NCBI RefSeq assembly: GCF_017751145.1
Contig: NZ_CP046640.1
Span: 2,026,137-2,090,136 of the forward strand
Direction of reading: 5' to 3'
Length of the DNA stretch: 64,000 nucleotides
Source: Iocasia fonsfrigidae
GTDB lineage: Bacteria > Bacillota > Halanaerobiia > Halanaerobiales > DTU029
The notes beneath the pieces are model-generated. The model saw only the letters and a list, made by a program, of their open reading frames with translations, made no database searches and was not told the origin of the DNA. Shown one piece after another: positions 32,201 to 38,243 of this stretch. The translations under genes and the position numbers were made by a program. The stretch's first letter is position 1; each line of letters opens with the position of its first letter.

Positions 32201-32488
32201 CTAAATAATCACCATTCCTTTTTAATTAAGATTAGTTACTACTCTAGTAAAGAATCAAAGTGGCACACAGTGGTGTTTCTTTTATGTAATGTAGAAATAA
32301 ATAGCATAAATCTATACCATAACTATAAATGAAATAATATAACTCTGAGTGCTATTTGACTCTTGAGTAGTATGATATAATAATAGTATAATGATTATAT
32401 TAAGGAAACACAACCTAAAAAATTGCTTTTAATCTTTGTACAGTTCGTGAATAAGCATTTTTTTAATAAATTAGTGAGGGTAATTTAT
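32201..32488. other. AT-rich intergenic region
   Basis: 288 bases between the divergent EamA gene and the Gfo/Idh remnant. It contains TATAAT-like runs near 32370-32390 (TGATATAATAATAG) that may be a promoter, but no clear -35. No RNA gene, repeat or intact ORF is seen. Confidence 0.4.
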
Positions 32489-32908
32489 ATGACATATGGT
32501 ATTGGTATTTATGGGTGTGGAGGTATAGGTAAAGTACATGCTTATTGTTATAATAATTTACGATTCTTTTATGCTCCACCTGCTTTAAAGACAGAATTAA
32601 TCGGTGTCTCTACTTCAAACCAGGAAACAGCAAATATAGCTAAAGAGACTCTAGGTTTTAGATTTGCAACTACTGATTACCGTGATTTACTTAATAGTGA
32701 TGATATCCAGATTGTACACTGCTGTACACCTAATTATCTACACAAGGATTTCTTGATAGCTATAATTAGGCATATTTATTGTGAAAAACCGATAGCTCTG
32801 AACTTAACAGAAGCAGAAGAAGTTTTAGCTGTTGCAGAGGAAGTAAACTTCACTCGAGAATGGAGTGTATATTCAACGAGTCCACGATATGATGTTAAAA
32901 TCTGTTGA
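32489..32908 (+). pseudogene. N-terminal fragment of a Gfo/Idh/MocA-family oxidoreductase
   Basis: 139 codons from ATG 32489 (GTGAGGG upstream). The NAD-binding Rossmann start (GIGIYGCGGIGKVHAYCY), VHCCTPNYLHKDF and CEKPIALNLTEAEEVL match the family, whose members have about 340 residues. After residue about 127 the frame reads unrelated sequence (VYSTSPRYDVKIC) and stops. The whole C-terminal substrate domain is missing, and TetR promoter sequence follows within 80 bases. Interpreted as a broken gene. Confidence 0.75.
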
Positions 32909-32981: not shown

Positions 32982-33030
32982 TTGACAAATAATCTATCTT
33001 GTAATATTATTTATTTAACCGGTTAGTTAA
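32982..33030 (+). promoter_or_regulatory. tetR promoter with overlapping operator
   Basis: A sigma-A type promoter: TTGACA (32982-32987), 17-base spacer, TATTAT (33005-33010). Immediately after it lies an inverted repeat TTATTTAACC/GGTTAGTTAA (33011-33030; 8 of 10 positions symmetric). It is positioned to let the TetR protein repress its own gene. Confidence 0.75.
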
Positions 33031-33051
33031 AAACGTAAGGAGTAAAAAATT

Positions 33052-33666
33052 ATGGGAAATGCAGTTGAGTCAAAACAAAAAATTTTAAATGTAGCAGAGA
33101 AACTCTTTGCTGAAAAAGGCTTTGATGGTGCTAGGGTAAGTGAAATTGCCAGTGAAGCCGGGGTAAATAAAGCCCTTATATATTACTATTTTAACAGTAA
33201 AGAAGATATTCTTGAAACATTATTTACAATTCTAATTGATGATTTTAAAAATTTAATAAAAAACAATATGATAGGAATTAATGTATTTAGTGAAGATAAT
33301 CTTGATATAGTAATGAATAGTATATTAGATTATATTTTGACCAAGAAGGATATATTACGTGTCGCTATGGTAGAATCTATGAAAGCAGTATCTGAACAAT
33401 CAATAATAATCAAAATCGGTGAAATGCTAATAAGCGCTGAAATTGAAGAGGTGAGGCAGTCTTTGCTTGAGAAAGGGATAAAATCTCCCGGTAATATTAA
33501 GGAAATACTTGTGGCAGAATTTTTCACTGGTACTTTACCTGTATTAAACTATGTTATATTTGAAGATGAGTTTACCCATCATTTTAATATGGATGAAAAG
33601 GAATACAGAGAATATTTCATTAAAGCCTTTAAGCAAACCCACTTTGCCTATCACCTGAAGAGGTAA
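33052..33666 (+). CDS. TetR/AcrR family transcriptional regulator
   Basis: 204 residues. The N-terminal TetR HTH is clear: KILNVAEKLFAEKGFDGARV, then EIASEAGVNKALIYYYFNSKEDIL (residues about 10-55). The C-terminal ligand-binding domain is helical and unassigned. It lies upstream of the RND pump operon and is preceded by an operator-like inverted repeat; two related repeats lie between it and the pump gene. Likely role: repressor of itself and the pump, released by a hydrophobic ligand. Confidence 0.92.
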   Translation: MGNAVESKQKILNVAEKLFAEKGFDGARVSEIASEAGVNKALIYYYFNSKEDILETLFTILIDDFKNLIKNNMIGINVFSEDNLDIVMNSILDYILTKKDILRVAMVESMKAVSEQSIIIKIGEMLISAEIEEVRQSLLEKGIKSPGNIKEILVAEFFTGTLPVLNYVIFEDEFTHHFNMDEKEYREYFIKAFKQTHFAYHLKR

Positions 33667-33684
33667 AGTGTTTTTTTAAATATA

Positions 33685-33705
33685 TTTAACCAAATGGTTA
33701 GTTAA
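33685..33705 (+). promoter_or_regulatory. Operator-like repeat, copy 2
   Basis: TTTAACCAAATGGTTAGTTAA: an inverted repeat centred on AACCA/TGGTT that shares GGTTAGTTAAAAA with the site in the tetR promoter (33021-33033). It lies just after the tetR stop. Confidence 0.55.
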
Positions 33706-33760
33706 AAAGGGGGGTGATAAAACTAATAGTACTAAAATAAAAGAAATTTTTTTATAAGAA

Positions 33761-33778
33761 TAACTATCTGGTTAGTTA
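33761..33778 (+). promoter_or_regulatory. Operator-like repeat, copy 3
   Basis: TAACTATCTGGTTAGTTA: TAACTA and TAGTTA are inverted arms 6 bases apart, and the GGTTAGTTAAAAA core is the same as in the other two sites. It lies about 28 bases upstream of the chosen RND start. Confidence 0.55.
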
Positions 33779-33805
33779 AAAATTAAATTGGAAGGTGGAT
33801 TGGAG

Positions 33806-36286
33806 TTGAAAGATATGAGAAAAAAACAATTAAAAGATTTTTTTGCTGATTTTGGCTTTAATATTATCATTAAGTATAAATATTTAATATTATTGCTTTT
33901 ATTCGGCTTAACAATACTGGGTTTTTTGGGAATGCAGAAACTTGAATTTGATTCATCAAATGATGCTTTTTTACCTGAAAATGACCCGGTAGTTATAAAA
34001 AACGATAAGTTTAAAGAAATTTTTGGTAATGATGAGTTTATTTTCATTCTGGTAGAGAGTGATGAAATTTTTAGTCATAATGTTTTGCAGTATATTAAAG
34101 AACTAACCGAAGACCTGGAAGATAACTTACCCTTTGTAGATGAAGTTACTTCACTAGCTAATCTGGATTATATCGAAACAGAAGGTGATAGATTAATAAT
34201 TGATGACCTGATTAAAGAAATAGTACCTACTGAGCAAGAAACACTAAATGACTTGAAAAATAAGATTTTAGCTAAAAAAACATATGTAGGTAAAATAATT
34301 ACGGAAGATTGCCAAAAAACCGGGATTATTGTTACCTTTCAGGAAATACCGGAAATGATTTATGCTCCGGTTGGTAAAAACTTTTCCCCACTGGACCAGG
34401 CCGATTATTCACCTCAAGAAGTATTGATGGATGAAAACCTGTATACTAAACATCAGCTTGGTTTAAATAAAGTGGCAGACCCTAGAAAGCTGATTGCCCC
34501 AGCTTTAAAGGTTATTTTAGCCCGGCATAGTGATAGTAAGATAAAAACAACTGCTACCGGAGTTCCTGTATTGGATTATGAGACTGATCGAATGGTCACT
34601 GAGGAAGGGACTAAATTTGGCCTGATTGCACTACTTGCTGCAACTCTATTAATGATCGTACTCTTCAGAAGCTTTAGAGCTGTTGCTGCTATTTTTCTGG
34701 TAGTTTTGTCTTCACTGGTAATCCTCTTTGGAACATTGGGTTGGCTAAAGCTTAAGCTTTCCATACTGGCCTTGATTATACCTACATTGGTTCTGGTTAT
34801 CTCGGTTAGTTATTCTATTCATGTTATTAACCATTTTTTAAATGGTCTGGAAAAGGGTTTTCGCTATAAGGCGATAAAATATGCTTACCGGGAATCGACC
34901 TGGCCTATTTTAATAACTGCTTTAACTACCACCCTTGGTTTTATTTCATTTATATTTGTACCACTGGAACCCATCAAGATAGTTGGGTTTTCCTGTGCAA
35001 TAGGGACTTTTTTAACCTATCTGATAGTGATGATTGTTGTTCCGCTAATTTTTTCTATAGGAAAGAGTAGAACTTTACCAAAAAAAGATTATAGTAAAAA
35101 AAGTGCTCAAAAAATTTTTCGGAAAGCTATGGAAAAATGGGCTGATTTTGTAGTCAGAAATATAAGAGTTACAGTAGGATTGTCAATAATTGTGATAATT
35201 TTTGTTGTTTTTTATTCTTTTAAAATGCCAATTAACAGTGATATGTTACAGGTTTTAGGTAAAGATGTGGATTTTGTTAAAAATGCTAATTATATTACAG
35301 AAAAGCTGGGAGCCCTGTATTCTTACGATGTTTTGCTGGAATTTCCAGAAGAAGGGATGGTGAAAAAAAGTGAAGTGCTTAAAGAGATAGATGGTCTAAC
35401 AGATATGATCAATCGATTTGATTCAACAGTAACCCAGACTTCAATAATTGACTTAATCAAGGAATTACATATGACCATGAATAATAACCAGGAGACTTTT
35501 TATCAAATTCCAGCTTCCAATGACCTGCTCGCTCAGTATTTATTATTATATGAGATATCAGGTGGAGAAGACCTGGAAGATCTGGTTGATTTTAATTATC
35601 AAAAAACCCATATTTCAGTACAGGTTAACGATTTTAAGAGCTCAATCCTGCAGGAATTTGAAAAAGTAATTACCTATGGTCAGCAGCATTTTCCGGCAGG
35701 GACTAAAGTAACAGTAGTGGGTGATATGCCAATTCTGCTCAAAACCTTGACAAAACTGGTCGATGGACAGAAGCTATCTATTTTTATAGCCTTAATGGTT
35801 ATTACCCTGGTAATGATAATAGTCTTGAAATCAATAAAGTTAGGACTGTTATCAATGATTCCCAATGTAATTCCAGTCCTGGTAATTACAGGATTAATGG
35901 GCTTATTACAATACTCTCTTGATTTTATTACAGTCCTGATTGCACCGATGATTATCGGTATTGCCGTTGATGACACAGTCCATTATTTCATTCACTTTAA
36001 GGAAGAGTATCTTGTGACAGGTTCTTACCATCAAGCAAATAAGGAAACCTTCCGTAAGATTGGTAAAGCTTTGATTTCAGCCTGTGTTGTTCTAATGTTA
36101 GGTTTTGCTATTTTTGTTTTATCGAAAATGGCAAGTCTGGGACATATGGCAGTTCTCTCAGCAGCAGGTATTTTCGCTGCTCTAGCAGCAGATATGCTAA
36201 TTACTCCGGCAATTGTTATGCTGGTAAAACCCTTTGGGGAAAATCTTGAAATTACAAACAGGGAGGAAGAAAATTATGAAATGTAA
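33806..36286 (+). CDS. RND/MMPL-family efflux transporter
   Basis: 826 residues from TTG 33806 (GAAGGTGG 7 bases upstream; TTG 33788 and 33800 and ATG 33815 are alternatives). Architecture: TM1 near residue 25, a large periplasmic loop (FLPENDPVV onward), a cluster of about five helices (sterol-sensing-like), then a second repeat with TM7, a second loop and the C-terminal helix set. MMPL-type text includes PTLVLVISVSYSIHVINHFLN, and the second repeat carries APMIIGIAVDDTVHYFIHF. Such pumps export hydrophobic compounds or lipids using the proton gradient. The next gene overlaps it by 11 bases. Confidence 0.9.
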   Translation: MKDMRKKQLKDFFADFGFNIIIKYKYLILLLLFGLTILGFLGMQKLEFDSSNDAFLPENDPVVIKNDKFKEIFGNDEFIFILVESDEIFSHNVLQYIKELTEDLEDNLPFVDEVTSLANLDYIETEGDRLIIDDLIKEIVPTEQETLNDLKNKILAKKTYVGKIITEDCQKTGIIVTFQEIPEMIYAPVGKNFSPLDQADYSPQEVLMDENLYTKHQLGLNKVADPRKLIAPALKVILARHSDSKIKTTATGVPVLDYETDRMVTEEGTKFGLIALLAATLLMIVLFRSFRAVAAIFLVVLSSLVILFGTLGWLKLKLSILALIIPTLVLVISVSYSIHVINHFLNGLEKGFRYKAIKYAYRESTWPILITALTTTLGFISFIFVPLEPIKIVGFSCAIGTFLTYLIVMIVVPLIFSIGKSRTLPKKDYSKKSAQKIFRKAMEKWADFVVRNIRVTVGLSIIVIIFVVFYSFKMPINSDMLQVLGKDVDFVKNANYITEKLGALYSYDVLLEFPEEGMVKKSEVLKEIDGLTDMINRFDSTVTQTSIIDLIKELHMTMNNNQETFYQIPASNDLLAQYLLLYEISGGEDLEDLVDFNYQKTHISVQVNDFKSSILQEFEKVITYGQQHFPAGTKVTVVGDMPILLKTLTKLVDGQKLSIFIALMVITLVMIIVLKSIKLGLLSMIPNVIPVLVITGLMGLLQYSLDFITVLIAPMIIGIAVDDTVHYFIHFKEEYLVTGSYHQANKETFRKIGKALISACVVLMLGFAIFVLSKMASLGHMAVLSAAGIFAALAADMLITPAIVMLVKPFGENLEITNREEENYEM

Positions 36287-37070
36287 ATCTTTAATGATCA
36301 TATTACTGGTGTCTGTAATGTTGTTACCTGTTCTGGTTCAGGCAGAGGAATTGACTGGTAGGGAGATTATTGATAAAACAAATATTATGAACTTGGTTGA
36401 TGATATGCAGGCAGAGATGGAGATGGTAATGATCAATAAAGCAGGGCAGAAAAGGGTCAGGGAACTAATGTCATATTCAAAAAAAGATAAAAGTGATGAT
36501 ATAGAAAAATCTATAATGCGTTTTCTTAGTCCGGCAGATGTTAAAGGCACAGGGTTTTTAAGTATAGACAATCCGCAAGGGGCTGATGAAAAATACCTAT
36601 ATTTACCTGCCATGGGACGGCCCCGCCGGCTATCATCAGATGAGAGAGGTGGTTCCTTTATGGGGTCTGATTTTAGTTATGAAGATATTTCAGAATCTGT
36701 TGAAGATTATATTTACACCATTATTGGTACTGAAGAAATAGATGGTCAGCAGGTTTATATTGTTGAATCTATTCCACGTACAAAAGAAATAGAGAAAGAT
36801 GTGGAATTTGCTAGAAAGATTTCCTGGGTGAGAAAAGACAATTTTGTTCTAATCAAGGCAGAATTTCATGATAAAAAGGATGAGGTATTGAAAAGGCTTA
36901 ATGTACTGGAAATAAAACAGATTACTGAAGAGGTATGGATGCCGGTTCATTTAGAGATGGAAACTTACCAGAAAGGGTCCAGGACCAGTCTAAAATATAA
37001 AGATATTAAAGTGGATACAGGGTTAACAGACGATTATTTTTCTGTTAGACAATTAACCCGTCCTCTATAA
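36276..37070 (+). CDS. LolA-like outer-membrane lipoprotein-sorting protein
   Basis: 264 residues from ATG 36276 (GGGAGGAAG upstream), overlapping the RND stop by 11 bases. A signal peptide covers residues 1-23 (cleavage near VQA-EE). The mature part follows the LolA-like family usually encoded with MMPL/RND pumps: MRFLSPADVKGTGFLSID, then KYLYLPAMGRPRRLSSDERG and SFMGSDFSYEDI. The fold is a half-barrel that carries a lipid or lipidated molecule through the periplasm. Together with the RND and beta-barrel genes it makes sense only in a diderm cell. Confidence 0.88.
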   Translation: MKCKSLMIILLVSVMLLPVLVQAEELTGREIIDKTNIMNLVDDMQAEMEMVMINKAGQKRVRELMSYSKKDKSDDIEKSIMRFLSPADVKGTGFLSIDNPQGADEKYLYLPAMGRPRRLSSDERGGSFMGSDFSYEDISESVEDYIYTIIGTEEIDGQQVYIVESIPRTKEIEKDVEFARKISWVRKDNFVLIKAEFHDKKDEVLKRLNVLEIKQITEEVWMPVHLEMETYQKGSRTSLKYKDIKVDTGLTDDYFSVRQLTRPL

Positions 37071-37085
37071 GGATGTGATCTAGTT

Positions 37086-38243
37086 TTGAAAGATAAAATA
37101 TTTTCTATTCTATTGAGCTGGCTGTTTTTTATGTTTTTTTCCTGGACTAATGTTTATGGCAGTGACCTGGAACTTAGTGGAGAATGGGTCTCGAGACTGG
37201 AAGCAGAATTCCAGGGAGAGAATGATATTATATTGTTTAATTCACTTGGTTTAGATTTAAATTATAATAGTTCTATGTCAGCTTTTAAGGCCAGTTTAGA
37301 CATTACAGACGATGATGATGATCCTAATGTTAGTTTAGAAGAGGCTTATGGAGAGTTTTATTTTCAGTCTACTGATTTAAGGATAGGTAAACAGTATATT
37401 GCCTGGGGTAAAACTGATGGTATCAATCCAACTGATAACTTTAACCCTGAAGATTTAACAGATCCCTTCAGTGAAGACAATAAATTGGCTGTAAATGCAG
37501 TTAGGGCTAAACATTATCAAGATGATTGGATATTCGATCTTATCTGGGCTCCCCTGTTTACAGCAGCTGAATTACCTAAAGCCGGTAGTCGCTGGTCTTC
37601 TTTGCCGGCAGGTCTAGAAATTGAACCACAGGAACCTGAAAATAGTCTGGAGAATTCTGAAATAGGGGTAAGGGCTTCTAAATGGGCTGGCTCAATTGAT
37701 TTTTCTTTTAGTTATTTTCGAGGCTGGAGTAAGACTCCAGCCTGGCCTGACCAGTCTATAATCGAAGACGGTCAATTAGTTTTCAAGCCTGAATATTATC
37801 AGGTTGATGTCTTTGGAACTGATTGGGCCAGAGATTTTGGTAGTTTTGTTTTCAGGGGTGAGTTAGCTTATTTTAAAACAAAAAAGGATTTTCAATTAAA
37901 AAATCCTTATTCTCAGTATGTCTTGGGGGTTGATTTTAATGCTACAGATGAATTGTATATTATTACCCAGCTGGTTGGTGAAAAAGAAGAAGGGGAAGAT
38001 AGGACTGACAACCTAACTGTATCTCTGGAGTATGAGCTTACTGAATTTAAGACTATTGAATTAAATGGAATATATAACCTGGCTGACAGAGACAGTCTGA
38101 TAAACCCCTTATTTAACTATGAAATAAGGGATGGTCTTGCAATGACACTGGGGGCCTATATATTTTCCGGGGAAGATGGGAGTTCATATGGCTGGTTTGA
38201 TGAGAAAGATTATGTATATATAGAGTTAGTAAGATCATTTTAA
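37086..38243 (+). CDS. Outer-membrane beta-barrel protein (DUF1302-like)
   Basis: 385 residues from TTG 37086. Signal peptide with cleavage near residue 25 (NVYG-S). The rest has alternating beta-strand texture with aromatic girdles (YGEFYFQS, RIGKQYIAWGKTDGINPTDNF, DFSFSYFRGW). It ends with YIELVRSF, and a C-terminal Phe on an amphipathic strand is the BAM recognition signal of outer-membrane proteins. The RIGKQ...WG...NP segment recalls DUF1302/alginate-export-type porins that pair with RND pumps and LolA-like proteins in Proteobacteria. The exact family is assigned with moderate confidence. Confidence 0.75.
   Translation: MKDKIFSILLSWLFFMFFSWTNVYGSDLELSGEWVSRLEAEFQGENDIILFNSLGLDLNYNSSMSAFKASLDITDDDDDPNVSLEEAYGEFYFQSTDLRIGKQYIAWGKTDGINPTDNFNPEDLTDPFSEDNKLAVNAVRAKHYQDDWIFDLIWAPLFTAAELPKAGSRWSSLPAGLEIEPQEPENSLENSEIGVRASKWAGSIDFSFSYFRGWSKTPAWPDQSIIEDGQLVFKPEYYQVDVFGTDWARDFGSFVFRGELAYFKTKKDFQLKNPYSQYVLGVDFNATDELYIITQLVGEKEEGEDRTDNLTVSLEYELTEFKTIELNGIYNLADRDSLINPLFNYEIRDGLAMTLGAYIFSGEDGSSYGWFDEKDYVYIELVRSF

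Follow-up and report, generated by a model that had tools for sequence, protein, structure and literature searches.

Can the four genes that follow one another in this stretch of the Iocasia fonsfrigidae genome form a single route across an envelope with two membranes, and if so, for what cargo and in which direction? The window analysed here is the whole stretch of 64,000 nt (GCF_017751145.1, NZ_CP046640.1 positions 2,026,137–2,090,136, forward strand) from a genome of 3.93 Mb. An earlier note on this DNA had read the genes as an inner-membrane pump, a periplasmic carrier and an outer-membrane partner under a TetR regulator, in a diderm, spore-forming lineage. We consider it likely that the operon encodes a TetR-repressed, proton-driven trans-envelope relay for hydrophobic cargo, probably running outward; its features are collected in Table 1.

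Table 1. Features of the operon and of the region before it, in window positions.
Feature	Position	Strand	Basis
Sigma-70-type promoter TTGACA-17-TATTAT before tetR	32982–33010	+	11/12 consensus matches; consensus only
Putative TetR operator 1, GGTTAGTTAAAAA inside TTTAACCGGTTAGTTAAA, near expected transcription start	33021–33033	+	exact 13-mer
TetR-family repressor gene	33052–33666	+	204 aa; PF00440 (TetR_N) E=2.2e-18
Putative TetR operator 2	33696–33708	+	exact 13-mer GGTTAGTTAAAAA; also one of three genomic TNGTTAGTTAAAA sites
Putative TetR operator 3, just 5' of RND start codon	33770–33782	+	exact 13-mer GGTTAGTTAAAAA; also TNGTTAGTTAAAA site
MMPL/HAE3-type RND transporter gene	33788–36286	+	832 aa; PF03176 (MMPL) E=6e-26, 91 bits
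LolA-like periplasmic carrier gene	36276–37070	+	264 aa with signal peptide; PF17131 E=3e-62, 209.8 bits
DUF1302-like outer-membrane beta-barrel gene	37086–38243	+	385 aa with signal peptide; PF06980 E=1e-7, 31.8 bits versus 23.2 cut-off

Open reading frames and Pfam matches, all four above the gathering scores, placed the TetR, MMPL/RND, LolA-like and signal-peptide proteins exactly where the earlier note had put them, and the strings quoted there (MRFLSPADVKGTGFLSID, SFMGSDFSYEDI and the YIELVRSF end of the barrel protein) were all found. The 11-base overlap between the RND and LolA-like genes (36276–36286) is likewise exact, and a good ribosome site, aggaggaag, lies ahead of the carrier gene. 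An alternative TTG start of the RND gene at 33806, with better Shine–Dalgarno spacing, would give 826 aa. Among the NCBIfam models compared, no equivalog matched the TetR gene at its cut-off. The genome has both Omp85 and Spo0A, in keeping with a diderm, spore-forming lineage. Before the operon, a short ORF (32423–32908), by eye similar to the N-terminal part of a Gfo/Idh-type oxidoreductase, is probably a gene remnant.

The carrier was modelled with a LolA fold (pLDDT 92), and its solved relatives were Porphyromonas gingivalis LolA3 (PDB 9tp6; Z 30.1, rmsd 1.8 over 234 residues, 36% identity), 4z48, titled DUF1329 (Z 28.4), and 3bk5 (Z 28.3), as compared with about Z 12 for canonical LolA structures; a profile search with the carrier found the same solved relatives. 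Its score against the DUF1329 Pfam model was 22.8 bits, with a cut-off of 23.1. The designation 'LolA-like' stands here for a protein of the LolA3/DUF1329 type, with solved relatives at Z 28–30, rather than for a canonical lipoprotein carrier. Canonical LolA identity was rejected by family (PF17131, not PF03548) as well as by structure. LolA3 of P. gingivalis, which belongs to the same family as the operon's carrier, was studied as an isolated protein; it binds LolB very weakly, has no counterpart of the LolA arginine and was suggested to have a separate function, with its partner left open (PMC13103446). The conserved pump and barrel neighbours described below suggest where that separate function may lie, and LolA3-type carriers gain a concrete, testable pair of candidate partners, the RND pump on one side and the outer-membrane barrel on the other.

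The earlier note had staked its reading on the third protein being a beta-barrel, and AlphaFold2, run with 49 relatives, indeed gave an N-terminal hydrophobic helix (signal peptide) followed by a closed antiparallel barrel of 18 strands, with pLDDT 91 and pTM 0.85. Comparison of the model with VIA-align matched it to 18-strand outer-membrane channels at Z of about 22 (MOMP Z 22.4, OprD/Occ porins about 22, AlgE at most 21.7), with 6–15% identity in the better rows, and since a profile of the barrel alignment found no match in the PDB, the barrel is placed by fold only. Its C-terminal Phe385 is invariant in all 49 barrel sequences, a terminal Phe being the usual outer-membrane assembly signal. 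OprD/Occ proteins are substrate-specific uptake porins, and their rank among the best structural matches would suit a route in the opposite direction, in which a hydrophobic nutrient enters by the barrel, crosses the periplasm on the carrier and is handed by the RND protein to the inner membrane; the porin likeness is, however, one of fold, at 7–15% identity.

By sequence, the nearest solved relatives of the pump are the hopanoid transporter HpnN (PDB 5KHN, E=1e-11), with lipid cargo, Patched and MmpL5. The best NCBIfam model was HAE3 (TIGR00921, E=1.5e-54, 185 bits, under the 352-bit cut-off), and the NCBIfam model of HpnN scored far under its cut-off. HpnN functions with neither carrier nor outer-membrane partner genes (PMC6394551); for the operon's pump, such solo transport was rejected in view of the carrier and barrel genes conserved beside it. 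Asp728 in TM10 is invariant in 66 of 66 full-length pump relatives; the TM4 aspartate is kept in 31 of the 66, with Ser/Tyr in its place in the operon's pump. The pump would be coupled to protons through the TM10 aspartate; the replacement in TM4 counts against the proposed relay. Judged by its ORFs and Pfam matches, the operon encodes neither a membrane-fusion protein nor a TolC-type duct, and it therefore falls outside the tripartite HAE1 (AcrAB–TolC) type. Elsewhere in the genome, at 3.07 Mb, there is another pump, HAE1-like, together with ORFs that by eye resemble TolC.

For the analysis of synteny, an alignment of all eight carriers of this genome was too diverse to search with, and an alignment of the four closer ones, containing no pump or barrel, was therefore used to scan 84,980 genomes. 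This gave 80 loci in many diderm phyla, and as the query held neither pump nor barrel, their presence beside the carriers constitutes an independent result. With loci cut by contig ends left out and the window included, all three genes lay within 3.5 kb on one strand at 60 of 68 loci, in the order pump–carrier–barrel (43 loci), carrier–barrel–pump (9) or carrier–pump–barrel (8), and the other eight had one of the three genes missing within that distance. TetR was the next commonest neighbour family, found upstream in 35 of 62 loci. Distance matrices of carrier, pump and barrel correlated with r of 0.90–0.95 (permuted maximum 0.24), in part because of their shared species history. In the host's class the carrier is encoded in 40 of 41 genomes, and 26 of the 30 class loci (the window's included) had all three genes, two of them (L172, L173) in the window's order TetR–RND–carrier–barrel; of the other four, one has an FtsX-type permease next to the carrier and barrel genes, one shows carrier and barrel where the contig ends, and two have just carrier and pump. 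The co-location in relatives on which the earlier note had also made its reading depend was thus found, both across phyla and within the class, and chance juxtaposition of the three genes was rejected by the synteny. That the operon occurs in a diderm Firmicute is correct, although it is nothing special to that lineage: by these genome comparisons, the three-part set is widespread in two-membraned bacteria. What is defined here is a nearly uncharacterised three-gene route by which such bacteria may shift hydrophobic molecules.

The cassette most closely related to the window's was found in Halonatronum saccharophilum (L096), with a ketoacyl synthase III gene upstream and the start of a FabH gene downstream. 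The same neighbourhood (L096:6357-14086), in which the ketoacyl synthase III gene and a second FabH start were noted, also encodes an AHL-lactonase-like hydrolase, and in this one genome the ketoacyl synthase III/FabH neighbours may be a weak hint of lipid chemistry. At a Spirochaetales carrier locus (L035:3559-4722), a different protein of 387 aa, also ending in Phe, occupies the place of the DUF1302-like barrel and is perhaps a swapped outer-membrane partner.

Within the host genome itself the operon is not alone either, as eight PF17131 carriers were found, that of the window and those of seven further cassettes. Each of the eight adjoins an exporter and a barrel-type ORF, the exporter being RND in six cases and a LolCDE-like ABC transporter in two; the ABC genes beside the latter two sister carriers score under the NCBIfam cut-offs where tested. 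The least certain barrel is that of the L030 cassette, which ends in Leu and gave no family or profile match.

The occurrence of the carrier is also linked with Omp85. In a sample of 61 Bacillota genomes grouped by kinship, for which the phylum name was inferred, strong carrier matches occurred in 9 of 14 Omp85-positive and 0 of 47 Omp85-negative genomes (one-sided p = 1.2e-7, uncorrected for kinship), and a barrel adjoined the carrier at 10 of 12 strong Bacillota loci outside the host's own genome. One Omp85-negative genome (G002) contained a 50-bit match, which looks like a lipoprotein and stands without pump or barrel. The assignment of inner-membrane pump, periplasmic carrier and outer-membrane partner is accordingly borne out by the protein families, the two confident models, the co-location and the finding that strong carrier matches among Bacillota were confined to genomes with Omp85. 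Three Omp85-positive Bacillota loci (L121, L122, L128) have weak LolA-like genes directly 5' of HAE1-type RND pumps.

Could the carrier nevertheless be the LolA of this organism, sorting lipoproteins with the barrel standing in for LolB? In favour of this, canonical LolA (PF03548) gave no match in the genome, with matches in six control genomes, and was likewise missing from each of the 14 genomes with Omp85 in the Bacillota sample; the two carriers beside LolCDE-like ABC genes would also suit that role, and a complete Lol system without LolB, with LolA homologues adjoining LolC/E and LolD genes, was proposed for Halanaerobiales (PMC5007114). On the other hand, beside the window's carrier there is no LolCDE ABC transporter and an RND pump in its place, P. 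gingivalis LolA3 barely binds LolB and is without the LolA arginine, and eight regulated copies fit special cargoes better than a housekeeping task. We regard lipoprotein sorting by this operon as very improbable, and the finding questions whether Halanaerobiales possess the classical lipoprotein-sorting pathway. One locus (L024:1717-7719) encodes TetR, a LolD-like ATPase, two LolC/E-like permeases, a PF17131 carrier and a barrel-type protein. This is likely what was called the Halanaerobiales Lol system (PMC5007114), and as it also encodes a barrel it could belong to the pump, carrier and barrel set as well. A broader reading, which we offer tentatively and hold to be less probable than its opposite, is that the LolA superfamily occurs in diderm Bacillota solely as LolA3-type carriers, nearly always tied to an 18-strand-type barrel that replaces LolB and loaded by either an RND or a LolCDE-like ABC transporter; they would then form a modular, LolB-free trans-envelope route, with the Halanaerobiales 'Lol system' as one version.

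With regards to regulation, no other promoter-like match on the operon strand of the region scored as well as TTGACA-17-TATTAT. The 13-mer GGTTAGTTAAAAA has three exact copies in the window, all within the operon (one downstream of the promoter, two before the RND gene), and TNGTTAGTTAAAA, a pattern that differs slightly from it, matches exactly at three places genome-wide, of which two lie in the operon. The three 13-mer sites are candidate operators for the operon's own TetR.

Among known systems, the nearest in composition is AmeABCD of Castellaniella defragrans, in which an HAE3-group RND protein, a LolA-superfamily carrier and a DUF1302 outer-membrane protein are also encoded together and for which the cargo is hydrophobic, as would be the case here. 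AmeA has 605 aa versus 385 aa for the operon's barrel, and AmeB is a full DUF1329 protein of 451 aa versus the PF17131 carrier of 264 aa (PMC6394551). AmeABCD furthermore has a fourth protein, the second periplasmic protein AmeC (YCF48-like, COG4447), with no such ORF in the operon; the AmeC family PF14870 gave no match in the genome and matches in four control genomes, and the operon was therefore filed as a three-part variant of the AmeABCD type. By analogy it would work like AmeABCD, minus AmeC. The aryl polyene system ApeL–ApeM–ApeN shares a LolA-like chaperone and an RND pump, a pair proposed to carry aryl polyene lipids outward to the outer membrane; it differs in having a LolB-like DUF3261 receptor instead of a barrel and in lying within a biosynthetic cluster (PMC8253772).

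These systems also bear on the direction of transport. In Pseudomonas putida, growth on Tween 20 requires DUF1302/DUF1329 genes, which show a correlation with an RND gene (PMC10866462); the failure of their mutants could mean uptake as readily as export. Set against the uptake route are the lowered monoterpene tolerance upon ameABCD deletion (PMC6394551), the fact that characterised RND and MmpL proteins are exporters, and TetR regulation, which is typical of efflux; we consider uptake unlikely. In the favoured outward relay, TetR bound to the three operators would, with no inducer present, silence both its own gene and the pump operon, until a hydrophobic inducer, perhaps the cargo itself, frees it from them. 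The RND pump would then lift a hydrophobic or amphiphilic, presumably lipid-like molecule from the inner membrane at the expense of the proton gradient, by way of the TM10 aspartate. The groove of the LolA3-type carrier would shield this cargo through the periplasm, and after a physical hand-over the 18-strand barrel would either release it outside or feed it into the outer membrane. That TetR senses a lipid or solvent cargo, as the earlier note had proposed, is plausible.

A more specific cargo comes into consideration through the surroundings of the sister cassettes, three of which lie within an iron/B12-uptake island (G000:C1:2700000-2786000; L139, L027, L028, L137, L029, L138) with genes for FeoB, DtxR with a FeoA domain, Fur, two TonB receptors, a BtuC/FecCD-type permease, ExbD and a flavodoxin. 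The island further contains several MsbA-like half-transporter pairs with TetR genes, and ahead of one of its cassettes stand a TetR gene and two MsbA-like half-transporters, an arrangement also seen in Prevotella. Low iron or hemin raises operons annotated as TetR, MMPL transporter, lipoprotein-sorting and hypothetical proteins 13–220-fold in P. gingivalis and P. intermedia, where they rank among the most induced (PMC10434189, PMC10470040). The P. gingivalis locus PG1178–PG1181 (TetR, MMPL transporter, outer membrane lipoprotein-sorting, hypothetical), which we liken to the operon by annotation alone, is induced by iron/hemin limitation and lies near ABC genes (PMC10434189, PMC10470040), whereas the window's copy has no adjoining iron gene. 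Iron- or heme-linked export in the manner of MmpL4/5, with a lipidic chelator or a porphyrin as cargo, is thus suggested for the sister cassettes; its extension to the window's operon is distinctly improbable, as iron-type neighbours occurred at just a few of the 80 loci elsewhere. An iron link for the window's operon was found to be unsupported by the neighbourhood of either its own copy or those 80 loci.

Two of the sister RND genes in the island are split by a frame change (L027:8953-11219 and L029:5805-8250), as a result of decay, a sequencing error or a natural split. The carrier and barrel genes of two island cassettes (L028:7645-9697 and L029:8284-10345) are nearly identical and about 29 kb apart, representing a recent duplication.
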